DNA of 64,000 nt from Saccharopolyspora thermophila (GTDB taxonomy: Bacteria; Actinomycetota; Actinomycetes; Mycobacteriales; Pseudonocardiaceae), in the NCBI RefSeq assembly GCF_014646075.1, contig NZ_BMMT01000002.1:1-64000 (forward strand). Reading direction: 5' to 3'. Each line of letters opens with the position of its first letter. Position 1 is the stretch's first letter. The notes under the pieces are model-generated. The model was not told the DNA's origin and did no database searches. It was given only the letters and a program-made list of their open reading frames with translations. The position numbers and the translations under genes were made by a program. This document shows positions 2,912 through 39,225 of the stretch, piece after piece.

Positions 2912-2934
2912 GTGACAGGAAGGTTCCCTTGCTC
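2912..2934 (+). repeat. Intergenic ACAGGAAGGTTCCCTTGC element, single copy
   Basis: One copy of the family that recurs through the first 39 kb, with the orientation reading ACAGGAAGGTTCCCTTGC on the plus strand. It lies 82 bp after the aldehyde dehydrogenase stop and 125 bp before dhaK. The core carries the dyad GGAA-NN-TTCC. Confidence 0.85.
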
Positions 2935-3058
2935 TCGACCCCCGTCGGGGCACGGGGGCTGCGCGGGCGGCATGCTGGCGGGCAGAGTTGACCACGCCCA
3001 GCCCGCCCCGGCCAGCGCCCGCCGGGGGACGTCCGCGAACCGGCAAGGAGGCCATCGG

Positions 3059-4054
3059 GTGAAGAAGATCATCAATGATCCGGCGAACGTGGTCGCCGAG
3101 TCGCTGCGGGGCATGGCCGCGGCGCATCCCGAGCTGCTGCGGGTCCGCACCGACCCGGCGGTGGTGGTGCGGGCGGACGCCCCGGTGGCCGGCAAGGTCG
3201 CCGTGATCTCCGGTGGCGGCTCCGGGCACGAACCGCTGCACGGCGGGTTCGTCGGGCCGGGGATGCTCGCCGCCGCGGTGCCCGGCGCGGTGTTCACCTC
3301 ACCCACCCCGGACGCGGTGCAGGCGGCGATCACCGAAACCCACGCCGGCGCCGGGGCGCTGCTGGTGGTCAAGAACTACACCGGTGACGTGCTGAACTTC
3401 GAGACCGCCGCCGAGCTCGCCGAGATGGACGGCGTGGAGGTGCGCAGCGTGGTCGTCGACGACGACGTGGCGGTCAAGGACTCCACCCACACCGCCGGTC
3501 GCCGCGGCGTGGGCGGCACGGTGCTGGTGGAGAAGATCGTCGGCGCGGCCGCCGAGTCCGGGGCCGACCTGGGCCGCTGCGAGGAACTGGCCCGCAAGGT
3601 GGTTTCCCGGGTGCGGTCGATGGGCATGGCGCTCACCGCGCCGACCGTGCCGCACGTCGGCGAACCCAGCTTCGACCTCGCCGCGGACGAGATGGAGATC
3701 GGCATCGGCATCCACGGCGAACCCGGCCGCGCCAGGGTGCCGCTGGCCTCGGCCGACGACATCGTGCGGCGGCTGCTGGACCCGATCGTCGAGGACCTGC
3801 CCTTCGCCGCGGGCGACGACGTCCTGCTGTTCACCAACTCGATGGGCGGCACCCCGCTGCTGGAGCTGTACCTGGCGCACGGGATCGCCGAGCGACTGCT
3901 GGCCGAGCGGGGCATCCGGGTGCGGCGCCGACTGGTCGGCCCCTACGTCACCAGCCTGGAGATGCAGGGCGTCAGCCTGACGCTGCTGAAGCTGGACGAC
4001 GAGCTGACCGAACTGTGGGACGCGCCGGTGCACACCGCGGCGCTGCACTGGTGA
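3059..4054 (+). CDS. dhaK: PTS-dependent dihydroxyacetone kinase, DhaK subunit
   Basis: DhaK binds dihydroxyacetone covalently through a histidine hemiaminal and presents it to DhaL-ADP for phosphorylation. The 331-residue protein shows the glycine-rich GGGSGHEPLHGGFVG segment near the N-terminus, KNYTGDVLNF, and the substrate histidine H219 in GIHGEPGR (H218 in the E. coli protein). The GTG at 3059 is preceded by AAGGAGG at 3045-3051; an ATG at 2912 is also open but falls in the repeat element and has no support. It is the first gene of dhaK-dhaL-dhaM. The cytoplasmic product is dihydroxyacetone phosphate, feeding glycolysis. Confidence 0.95.
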   Translation: MKKIINDPANVVAESLRGMAAAHPELLRVRTDPAVVVRADAPVAGKVAVISGGGSGHEPLHGGFVGPGMLAAAVPGAVFTSPTPDAVQAAITETHAGAGALLVVKNYTGDVLNFETAAELAEMDGVEVRSVVVDDDVAVKDSTHTAGRRGVGGTVLVEKIVGAAAESGADLGRCEELARKVVSRVRSMGMALTAPTVPHVGEPSFDLAADEMEIGIGIHGEPGRARVPLASADDIVRRLLDPIVEDLPFAAGDDVLLFTNSMGGTPLLELYLAHGIAERLLAERGIRVRRRLVGPYVTSLEMQGVSLTLLKLDDELTELWDAPVHTAALHW

Positions 4055-4067
4055 GGGGGAACGCCCG

Positions 4068-4706
4068 ATGGGTTGCACTGCGCATGACGTGATCACCGCG
4101 CTGCGGGCCGGTGCGGCGGTCGTGGCCGAGCACCGCGACGAGCTGAATCAGCTCGACCGCGCGATCGGCGACGCCGACCATGGCGAGAACATGGACCGCG
4201 GCTTCCGCGCCGTGGTCTCCAAAGTGGACACTGCGGCGCCGGAGACACCGGGAGCATTGCTGAAGCTGACCGCGACCGTGCTCATCTCCACCGTCGGCGG
4301 CGCGTCCGGCCCGCTGTACGGCACGGCGTTCCTGCGCGCCGCAGCGGCGCTCGGGGACACCGCGGAGCTGGACGGCGCCGCGGTCGCCAAGGCACTGCAG
4401 GCCGGCATGGAAGGCGTGGTTGCCCGCGGCCGCGCGGTCATCGGCGACAAGACCATGGTGGATGCGCTGTCCCCGGCCGTGGAGGCGGCCCGCACCGCAG
4501 CGGAGTCCGGCAACGGCCCGGCGAAGGTGCTGGCCGCGGCGGCCGAAGCGGCGCACCGGGGTGTGCAGGCCACCGAACCGCTCGTGGCCCGCAAGGGCCG
4601 CGCCTCCTACCTGGGCGAGCGCAGCGCCGGGCACATCGATCCGGGGGCGCGCTCGACCGCGTTGCTGCTGTCCGCATTCGCTGATGCCGTGAGGTCGCAG
4701 TCATGA
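4068..4706 (+). CDS. dhaL: PTS-dependent dihydroxyacetone kinase, DhaL (ADP-binding) subunit
   Basis: DhaL carries a tightly bound ADP that acts as a coenzyme, being rephosphorylated by DhaM and passing the phosphate to dihydroxyacetone in DhaK. The 212-residue protein has the Mg-ADP site GDADHGENM (D35, D37, H38) and the later TVGGASGPLYG and DPGARST segments typical of the family. It starts 13 bp after dhaK and its stop overlaps the dhaM ATG by 4 bp, which implies translational coupling. Confidence 0.95.
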   Translation: MGCTAHDVITALRAGAAVVAEHRDELNQLDRAIGDADHGENMDRGFRAVVSKVDTAAPETPGALLKLTATVLISTVGGASGPLYGTAFLRAAAALGDTAELDGAAVAKALQAGMEGVVARGRAVIGDKTMVDALSPAVEAARTAAESGNGPAKVLAAAAEAAHRGVQATEPLVARKGRASYLGERSAGHIDPGARSTALLLSAFADAVRSQS

Positions 4707-37639: not shown

Positions 37640-37899
37640 CCCCGCGGCGTCAACGGGGTGATCCCGGGTGGGCCGTTGCGCCGACCCCCGTTGCGGCGTC
37701 GCGTGCCAGGCTGCTGTTGGGGATGCAAACTCCGGCCACTGTGGACGGTAGGGTGTCCGTACCGGTGCTGGAGCCGGTGTTGCGTGGCATCGGCCCCGAC
37801 ACGTTCCCGCTGGAGGAAGCGGCGAGCGCGCGCGGATCGGCGAAACCGGCGGCACCGTCGACTCGTGCTCGAGATGCGGTGACGGGCCGGCTCCCGCGG

Positions 37900-39060
37900 T
37901 CACGCCACGGACAGCCGCTGCCTGGTTTCGGCGACCCGCGGCGACCAGGGAGCCAGCTCCTCGGCCCGGGCGAGGGCCTCCCGCGCCGCTGCGTTGTTGC
38001 GGCAGGCCATGTGCGCCCGGGCCAGCGTCGCCAGGTCGTCGGCACGGGACAGCGGCGTGTGGTTGTACTCCGCGCCGGTCGCCGCGAGCCTGACCGCTGT
38101 CTCCGCGTCGCCCTCCAGCAGCGCGAGTAACCCGTTGGTGCCCCTGAGCTCGAATTCCGGGTAGCCCAGCTCGACGGCGTCCTGCAGCGCCTTCTTCGCG
38201 GTCGGCAGCAGCGTCTCAGCCGGGAGCTGCCCGGCCTCCACGGCCTTGAAGCCCAGTCCAGCCAAGCCCACCAACAGGTAAGACATCTTGCGCGGCGGGA
38301 TGTTGTCGTGCTCCGACAAGTACTTCAGCAGCATCAGCACCCCGGGCGCGTACTCGCCGCGCGCCTCCAGCACCGAAATTCGGCACGACACCGTCACGGA
38401 CAACCCGGGGTGCTGCTCGGCGAGCACATCGGCGAACTCCTGCGCGCGGTCGATCTGCCCTACTCGCAGCGCCTCGTAAGCGCGGGCAGCCACGGGTGCG
38501 GCGACGAACTCCTCCCGCTCCGCGCCCTTCAGCCGGGGCAGCGAGAACAGTATCCAGCCCGTGGAGGTCATCAGCGGAACCCGCTGCGGCCACAGCTTGT
38601 AGAGCATCAGCGGCGTCGCGGCGAGCACGAATCCGCGACCGAACGGGTCATCGGCCAGCAACCACGCCGCCGCCACCACCGCGAGCCCGACCAGCGCCGA
38701 CACCAGCCCCGCCAACCAGCAACGGAGGATCACCGGAGACCGCCACGGACCGATCTGCGCGCGCAGGGTGACCGGCAATGCGCGCAACGTGAACCTCACG
38801 CGCCGCGGCGTCCACGAAGCCACCTCCCGCATCCCGCCGAAGATCACATGGCGGACGCGCAGCCCGAACACCACCGATCCGACGATCAACCCCAGCTGGG
38901 TCGCCATGGGCAGCAGCACCACCCCGGCGAGAGCCCCCAGCCACCCCAGGGTGGTTCCGGTGAAACCGGTCTCGGCGATGAACTCCACCACCGCCACGGC
39001 GACCCCGCCCACGACGGTGCACACGACCCACGGCCGCAACAACAGGCTCTGCGCTCCCAC
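37900..39060 (-). CDS. Membrane protein with C-terminal TPR-like region
   Basis: A 386-residue protein with about four membrane segments in the first 170 residues (VVCTVVGGVAVAVVEFIA, LGALAGVVLLPMATQLGLI, CWLAGLVSALVGLAVVAAA and FVLAATPLMLY) and helical repeats afterwards (AYEALRVGQIDRAQEFADVL, ARAHMACRNNAAAREAL). The loop RVRHVIFGGMREVASWTPRRV recalls the region after the first helix in site-2-protease-like proteins, but no HExxH is present. Not recognised further; a membrane-anchored scaffold is possible. Confidence 0.6.
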   Translation of the reverse strand: MGAQSLLLRPWVVCTVVGGVAVAVVEFIAETGFTGTTLGWLGALAGVVLLPMATQLGLIVGSVVFGLRVRHVIFGGMREVASWTPRRVRFTLRALPVTLRAQIGPWRSPVILRCWLAGLVSALVGLAVVAAAWLLADDPFGRGFVLAATPLMLYKLWPQRVPLMTSTGWILFSLPRLKGAEREEFVAAPVAARAYEALRVGQIDRAQEFADVLAEQHPGLSVTVSCRISVLEARGEYAPGVLMLLKYLSEHDNIPPRKMSYLLVGLAGLGFKAVEAGQLPAETLLPTAKKALQDAVELGYPEFELRGTNGLLALLEGDAETAVRLAATGAEYNHTPLSRADDLATLARAHMACRNNAAAREALARAEELAPWSPRVAETRQRLSVA

Positions 39061-39138
39061 AAACCCGGAAGCCTACGGGACGAAACCCCACCCCACCCCC
39101 GGTTCCAACCAGCCCGAACCCACAACCCCGCCGGACGT

Positions 39139-39225
39139 GAGCAAGGGAACTTTCCTGTCATTCCGAACCGGTCGATGCGAGCAAGGGAACCTTCCTGCCG
39201 CTGGTGACAGGAAGGTTCCCTTGCT
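39139..39225. repeat. Three-copy repeat cluster including a perfect inverted pair
   Basis: Copies at 39139-39160 and 39179-39198 read GCAAGGGAAC on the plus strand; the third at 39204-39225 is inverted. The second and third form a perfect 18-bp inverted repeat (39180-39197 and 39208-39225) around a 10-nt loop. This hairpin begins 5 bp from the rhodanese stop on the minus strand and can act as its terminator. Confidence 0.9.

Follow-up and report, generated by a model that had tools for sequence, protein, structure and literature searches.

A short intergenic repeat limited, where mapped, to one mid-replichore stretch of Saccharopolyspora chromosomes: possible sites of a domain-marking factor

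Why should a chromosome carry dozens of copies of one short sequence along a single stretch of core genome and almost nowhere else? The question is raised by the first 64,000 nucleotides of contig NZ_BMMT01000002.1 of Saccharopolyspora thermophila (assembly GCF_014646075.1), here called the window (G000:C2:1-64000, 71.4% G+C, from a 5.36-Mb genome of 59 contigs with our handle G000), in which an initial annotation had recognised a family of short repeats scattered between genes. The repeat is not a genome-wide one: where mapped in Saccharopolyspora, it is limited to one stretch about 1 Mb from the replication origin. By analogy with the matS and RefZ sites of other bacteria, we hold with moderate confidence that the copies would be binding sites of a putative trans-acting factor that marks one mid-replichore domain.

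With up to three mismatches allowed, the pattern ACAGGAARGTTCCCTTGC matches the window 21 times against 0.02 matches expected, a number that none of 100 shuffles attains, which agrees with the initial annotation that the family is not due to chance. The matches form eight groups (at 2.9, 5.4, 16.8, 20.5, 21.4, 26.6, 32.6 and 39.2 kb) spanning 2915-39224, and there is no copy in the last 24.8 kb of the window (39225-64000). About 22 copies in nine places had been reported; the family is real, our count is the 21 copies in eight groups just given, and the ninth place may be a truncated match at about 8060, which we saw only as an inverted-repeat arm. Copies occur on both strands around a GGAA-NN-TTCC dyad core, both of which had been read correctly, and the consensus from 75 copies in the source genome, 73 in S. 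rosea (G003) and 94 in the congener G020 is GTGRCAGRAARGTTCCCWTSCTC, which at 23 bp is longer than the core first reported. The element had also rightly been set apart from clustered regularly interspaced short palindromic repeats (CRISPR): groups hold one to five copies at variable offsets on both strands, and no cas families were found among the domain proteins scanned against Pfam. Rfam and tRNA scans of the window returned nothing.

In the source genome the core at up to two mismatches has 70 matches, 69 of them on contigs C2, C22 and C23 and one, with two mismatches, on C6; a reversed control pattern has none. Reciprocal best hits place C22, C23 and C2 in one collinear segment that matches the motif segment of G003 and G020. 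At up to one mismatch, all 36 matches of G003 (one contig, 6.56 Mb) lie at 5.478-5.635 Mb (157 kb), all 42 of G020 (one contig, 5.78 Mb) at 1.590-1.780 Mb (190 kb), all 84 of G014 at 3.857-4.145 Mb, and all 19 of G007 at 42-262 kb of a single contig. For G003, G020 and G014, the motif stretch makes up 2.4-3.5% of the chromosome. Forty 20-kb samples of S. rosea from beyond this domain hold no copy at up to three mismatches, and nine pieces over its roughly 180 kb hold 73. On these counts (69 of 70 matches in one segment of the source genome; every match within one stretch in G003 and G020; none in 40 outside samples of S. rosea) a genome-wide repetitive extragenic palindromic (REP) element is rejected. 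The initial annotation had proposed that chance-level occurrence genome-wide, or copies equally common inside genes, would speak against the family; genome-wide the motif is not at chance level and is nearly absent outside one domain, and it is not equally common in genes.

The same S. rosea samples contain an unrelated repeat between genes (CTCACCGAAAGAGAAAGCGG... and its relatives) that is truly dispersed: it occurs in 19 of the 40 pieces from outside and in two of the nine from the domain, so that confinement is not a general property of repeats in that genome. This dispersed repeat, present in 21 of the 49 pieces overall, is found for example at G003 4138252-4158251. A 10-mer scan of the 40 samples revealed no second domain-specific motif of this kind, and a few pieces held weak four- to fivefold 10-mers. 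Local clusters of repeated 10-mers were seen at G003:C1:1331041-1351040 and 2486952-2506951 (24-25 and 8-10 copies), possibly CRISPR-like arrays.

Which part of the chromosome is singled out? The dnaA gene lies at 0.8 kb in G003, 0.696 Mb in G020 and 2.706 Mb in G014. In seven of the eight genomes searched for parS, among them G020 and G014 but not G003, a cluster of these sites is no more than about 7 kb away from dnaA; in G007 it is on another contig. A dif pattern, whose reversed control also matched once, in G014, has one match in each of the three genomes, at 3.251 Mb (G003), 3.598 Mb (G020) and 6.718 Mb (G014), opposite the origin, and in the S. rosea samples the G+C skew turns from mostly positive to mostly negative near this dif-like site. 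The centre of the domain is about 1.0 (G003), 1.0 (G020) and 1.3 Mb (G014) from dnaA, each time on its upstream side, which is about one third of the way from dnaA to dif on one replichore. Because dnaA, parS and the dif-like site all lie elsewhere, the domain is neither ori nor ter, and a terminus or origin marker is ruled out. In four Saccharopolyspora genomes and in G050, a genome of another genus, the domain (about 160-290 kb) is an orthologous stretch of core genome around the ATP synthase operon. Besides the ATP synthase subunits it encodes Rho, a peptide-chain release factor, an aldehyde dehydrogenase, Dak1, a penicillin-amidase-like protein, a Y-family polymerase, a phosphorylase, transporters and a product with E1 and 2-oxoglutarate dehydrogenase domains.

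The element is nearly genus-wide. All 22 Saccharopolyspora genomes have matches at up to one mismatch, 15 to 120 each except for G013, which has one; 19 genomes from other genera of the order have none at that threshold. An exact scan of public genome contigs found at least 118 stretches, and the 80 among the matches listed are all from Saccharopolyspora. In a sample of 249 genomes of the family (up to two mismatches), 17 Saccharopolyspora genomes have 42-143 matches each, and eight of the 232 others have 20 or more (G050 51, G051 23, G135 95, G153 92, G169 84, G184 74, G212 27, G141 20), the remainder having mostly 0 to 3; of the eight, G051, G135, G153, G169 and G184 are g62 and g31 genomes. 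The segment 3.836-4.002 Mb of G050 (4.83 Mb, dnaA at 1.3 kb) contains 51 of its 59 matches, and 104 of 144 predicted genes there have counterparts in the G020 domain above 55% identity. In G255, of genus g32, a diverged form of the motif, mostly GRTAGCAAAGGTCCCTTGC, has 112 matches.

Some wider connections were tried and set aside. A different domain motif in the orthologous region of G024, from another genus, is rejected; this genome has a 21-bp tandem intergenic repeat, AGGTGCRACTCGCG (for example at C1:4828413-4828700), whose 147 matches spread along the chromosome. For G022 the top 11-mers in the 60 kb read looked like a local simple repeat. A single viral contig, L305 (IMGVR_UViG_3300042923_000255, 62% G+C), has an exact match, and a phage origin is rejected. 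On this contig the motif occurs twice at 6581-6625, as a 28-bp direct repeat with 3 and 0 mismatches near a tRNA-Asn gene, two neighbouring copies that are hard to call chance.

How the copies sit among genes is seen first in the window, where the domain and its copies are laid out as follows.

1..39224: window portion of the motif domain, which continues on contigs C23 and C22 (synteny order C22 - C23 - C2).
2915..2932, plus strand: single copy; the orthologous gap in G020 is also occupied, and the sole match of G013 (up to one mismatch) lies in that gap.
5414..5472, plus strand: two direct-repeat copies, offset 41 bp, the first beginning 33 bp past a stop codon.
12004..12660, plus strand: TetR-family gene within the domain, with a counterpart in the G050 domain; a mere candidate for the trans-acting factor.
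16784..16902, minus strand: three direct-repeat copies, offsets 46 and 55 bp, beginning 19 bp past the stop of the gene at 15868-16764 and antisense to it.
20463..20480, minus strand: single copy.
21342..21446, plus strand: three direct-repeat copies, offsets 41 and 46 bp.
26552..26725, plus strand: five direct-repeat copies, offsets 38, 38, 38 and 42 bp, with 1 to 3 mismatches each.
32574..32673, plus strand: three direct-repeat copies with a period of 41 bp.
39141..39158, minus strand: copy adjoining the palindrome below, in the window's last array; from there to C2:100000 there is no copy (up to two mismatches).
39181..39224, minus/plus pair: palindrome, offset 27 bp; the orthologous gap in G003 and G020 holds arrays.

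Two adjacent paralogous genes for putative neutral zinc metallopeptidases (30976-33907, minus strand) have a motif array between them.

None of the 21 window copies lies within a gene predicted by our own simple gene finder, which may miss open reading frames (window coding fraction 0.838), in keeping with the earlier statement that no full-length copy is found inside genes. Over three genomes (G000, G003 and G020) predicted genes, with a coding fraction of 0.823, contain 7 of 224 copies, and over 118 named loci, which may overlap, 14 of 586 at a fraction of 0.798. In the three genomes the 210 intergenic copies favour convergent gaps (67, 22.9 expected by length) and are scarce in divergent ones (18, 63.7 expected); among copies up to 20 bp away from a stop codon, those antisense to the gene outnumber the sense ones by 54 to 10. 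The suggested link to 3' ends is therefore strong across the three genomes. For the window itself, six of nine groups had been placed within about 35 bp of a stop; our calls give four of eight (5.4, 16.8, 32.6 and 39.2 kb), which neither confirms nor refutes that figure, as our gene finder may miss frames. A dyad core and dozens of near-identical sites are also what operators of one transcription factor would look like, with a regulon that happens to be clustered. We consider this very improbable: the sites lie behind genes, their depletion in divergent gaps amounts to an avoidance of promoters that speaks against a regulon, and the adjoining genes have unrelated housekeeping functions.

Most inverted pairs have a fixed geometry. 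Of the minus/plus pairs 18-80 bp apart, 30 of 46 have an offset of exactly 27 bp, which yields a near-perfect palindrome; its most regular form in G050 is GTGACAGTAAGGGAACTTTCCTGTCACCGGTGACAGGAAAGTTCCCTTACTGTCAC, where an offset of 25 is the same geometry for a pattern two bases longer. Copies that belong to pairs (offset 25-31) number 22 of 75 in G000, 40 of 73 in G003, 16 of 94 in G020 and 56 of 66 in G050, and 39 of the 75 in G000 belong solely to direct arrays. The offsets between same-strand neighbours gather around 30, 42 and 54 bp, a periodic spacing (74 offsets; none of 5000 smoothed nulls is as periodic).

The palindromic pairs might instead be elements of RNA 3' ends, that is, bidirectional terminators or mRNA 3'-stabilisers of convergent transcripts, one of the roles first proposed. 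As single-stranded RNA, the pair at 39181-39224 folds at -38 kcal/mol on the plus strand and -42 on the minus strand (z-scores -6.7 and -10.1), and a single copy folds mildly (z -2.3). The threefold enrichment in convergent gaps, the antisense excess behind stops and the preponderance of paired copies in G050 all suit such a role. A few arm positions covary, namely columns 10-51 and 12-49 in G050, 19-42 in both G050 and G003, and 22-39 and 30-31 in G003. On the loop side, columns 24-37, 25-36 and 26-35 show no covariation in G050. Shuffles of whole arms equal the observed pairing in 68 of 2000 trials (G050), 74 of 2000 (G003) and 569 of 2000 (G000), so that the alignments offer mixed evidence for a folded nucleic acid. 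Only a minority of G000 copies are paired, and shuffled sequences fold better than a direct pair does (z +1.66). An intrinsic terminator would combine a G+C-rich hairpin with a following run of T; here only pairs form a strong hairpin, no T-tract occurs at copies, and none of the seven terminator-like hits in window 1-40000 is at a copy. Direct arrays and missing T-tracts thus speak against plain terminators. An RNA role is possible for the palindromic pairs but leaves the confinement to one domain unexplained, and we judge it rather unlikely as an account of the whole family.

Are the copies stable in place? In orthologous gaps of G000 and G020, 18 are occupied in both genomes, 1 in the first only, 5 in the second only and 80 in neither (p 9e-15). 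In the same order, the counts are 9/8/3/64 for G000/G003, 9/2/10/53 for G003/G020, 5/3/6/51 for G000/G050, 2/1/9/32 for G003/G050 (p 0.15) and 5/4/5/48 for G020/G050. Mean copy identity between G000 and G020 is hardly higher at orthologous gaps (0.806) than at non-orthologous ones (0.799). Copies within G020 resemble one another more closely (0.854-0.878 when it is compared with congeners), and in the pairs G000/G050 and G020/G050 identity is 0.737-0.765 between genera versus 0.82-0.85 within. From these identities and the shared gaps it follows that the places of copies are inherited and that, in part of the species, their sequences change in concert. Sites that follow one factor would behave in this way, and so would copies subject to gene conversion.

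The edges of the domain are stable in part. At the left edge, copies lie in the same two gaps of G014 and G020, and the last copies of G050 lie in one of these, with one extra gene there. At the right edge, arrays occupy the same gap in G000 (39.1-39.2 kb), G003 and G020; G014 extends to a gap further out, where G020 has a copy with three mismatches, and in G050 the first copies are found near the array that forms the right-hand edge in Saccharopolyspora. Window 51588-51632, in the ortholog of the gap that holds the last motif array of G014 and the weak copy of G020, contains two tandem copies of an unrelated 23-bp unit.

Shared places bear on the proposal that these are REP-like repeats spread by a distant REP-associated tyrosine transposase (RAYT), which is not supported in that form: the copies are confined to 2.4-3.5% of the chromosome, 18 gaps are shared and 6 unshared between G000 and G020, and the GTAG or CGTC tags of REPs are missing. 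Confinement and stable places together speak against a mobile REP.

In G013, gene order is kept over 60 kb, and the only match genome-wide is at the gap orthologous to the window copy at 2915. Two palindromes with another core lie at two gaps that are occupied in G020; they do not amount to a family, and a diverged motif family in G013 is rejected. Loss is the simpler reading of this near-absence, because G050, of another genus, has the element.

A functionless REP-like repeat, or one resembling a bacterial interspersed mosaic element (BIME), could have been amplified and homogenised only locally by tandem duplication and gene conversion and have stayed where it arose. Tandem arrays and head-to-head palindromes are in its favour, as is the greater likeness of copies inside G020 compared with copies of different species; the avoidance of genes and promoter gaps is also what would remain after selection against harm; the related motif of genus g32 is scattered more widely; and other intergenic repeats, dispersed widely, are present in S. 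rosea and G024. Occupied gaps and edge gaps that are shared, an orthologous domain in another genus and the near-absence from one collinear species instead suggest upkeep in trans. We know of no mechanism that would amplify a repeat locally across some 10^5 bp and keep the edges partly stable, which counts further against a passive repeat, an explanation that we think improbable, though less so than an RNA role.

Among known systems, two come closest. The matS sites of Escherichia coli are 13 bp long, and 23 of them, bound by MatP, span the Ter macrodomain over 800 kb (PMC3330122). As with matS, a short site is here repeated many times and restricted to one domain; unlike matS, it is 23 bp long, lies far from dif rather than around it at the terminus, and has about 70 copies in about 160 kb. 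RefZ-binding motifs of Bacillus number five, two per arm and one near oriC (PMC6657595). Like them, our repeat is near-palindromic and lies away from the terminus at an arm position that is conserved relative to oriC across the genus (on the same side in G003, G020 and G014), a conservation that follows from synteny; unlike those five sites of a known protein, the repeat has dozens of copies in a single domain, which in G003 and G020 lies on just one arm. By analogy, it would work most like matS in having many sites in one domain and most like the RefZ motifs in its genus-conserved arm position. Judged on site layout, it is a member of neither class, being neither at ter nor on both arms.

Other systems are more distant. 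The maoS site also defines a domain, Ori, there with a known protein, MaoP, but is one single 17-bp site (PMC5023128). The parS sites of ParB are likewise palindromic and clustered in one region, but they lie near dnaA, far from the domain, and their sequences are unrelated. REP super-families have GTAG- or CGTC-tagged ends and are short intergenic palindromic repeats that form head-to-head dimers (PMC3733652), all of which but the tags recalls our repeat; neither GTGRCAGRAARGTTCCCWTSCTC nor the G050 palindromes carry a tag, and the copies are in one domain, not dispersed. In the main text of that paper the word Actinobacteria occurs 0 times. Transcription macro-regions of S. erythraea have been described as core and non-core regions bordered by transposons (PMC3610266), in a paper where the word motif occurs 0 times. 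The strings AGGAAGGTTCCC and GGAAAGTTCCCTTG, or a description of this repeat, were not found in the literature searched, which left most subscription journals outside and is no proof of absence.

With a regulon, a mobile REP and plain terminators disfavoured, a domain-marking site remains the best explanation, and of the candidates put forward in the initial annotation, a binding site of a nucleoid or chromosome-organising protein fits best. Several observations weigh against it. Among congeners, confinement was mapped in five genomes only (G000, G003, G020, G014 and G007), and the 34 matches of G001 are on three of eight contigs whose mutual order was not placed. Eight of the 59 matches of G050 lie outside its domain. 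In G255, of the 89 listed matches with 0-1 mismatch, 59 are at 8.16-8.58 Mb and 30 are scattered; that stretch is not orthologous to the domain (7 of 371 genes above 55% identity), and a segment orthologous to the domain was not located in this genome. The G255 pattern argues against a family-wide rule of strict confinement. Copies of G000 and G003 stop 36-44 kb short of the left edge of G020, so this edge is not fixed. S. rosea shows no concerted change, with identities of 0.791-0.795 within it and 0.807-0.808 at orthologous gaps between species. The best spacing period, 11.9 bp, is at the edge of the tested range and is not the helical 10.5. No binding protein could be singled out by Pfam among 68 distinct proteins in or just beyond the domain, which include several ordinary regulators. 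Lastly, the 3'-end excess and the strong hairpins also suit a role in RNA.

Candidate proteins were sought from the Pfam listing and by blastp between domains. One protein of the domain, of 559 amino acids (window 9452-11131, minus strand), is coiled-coil-like with 33-nucleotide internal repeats and has a sub-threshold DivIVA match (24.7 bits, cut-off 28) and relatives in G003, G020 and G050; we take it to resemble the polar-growth coiled-coil proteins of Streptomyces. Two TetR-type genes of the domain, the one at window 12004-12660 and another at C23 62799-63404, have counterparts in the G050 domain. They are mere candidates for the trans-acting factor, a lead and not evidence, and are of interest only because SlmA and RefZ are TetR proteins (PMC6657595).

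If a factor does mark this domain, it would probably be a sequence-specific DNA-binding protein that acts in trans on about 160-290 kb of one replichore, at around one third of the distance between oriC and dif. A large number of scattered sites, as tandem arrays and 27-bp-offset palindromes, might let it coat or bridge the segment, as MatP does at matS and RefZ at its arm sites, and the segment might thereby be constrained, or tethered to the division or polar-growth machinery. That a protein binds these sites, that it acts on chromosome organisation and what kind of contact it makes we infer from the layout of the copies. A bolder version, to which we give somewhat less credence than to domain marking as such, is a new chromosome-organising system of the Pseudonocardiaceae, in which a genus-wide, co-evolving DNA-binding protein and its dense sites would form a mid-replichore macrodomain, with sites at 3' ends that spare promoters, and which in G013 would have been lost whole together with the protein.

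Few systems are known in which sites single out one domain of a bacterial chromosome, and most of these sites are at ori and ter. A dense one-arm family of sites, nearly genus-wide and orthologous in another genus, may offer a handle on a new organising protein in mycelial actinomycetes, for which the likely natural loss in G013 and the diverged variant in G255 serve as comparisons. If the repeat is passive, its confinement is itself a puzzle of how repeats spread; if the copies do mark a domain, they would suggest a hitherto undescribed means by which part of a chromosome is marked.

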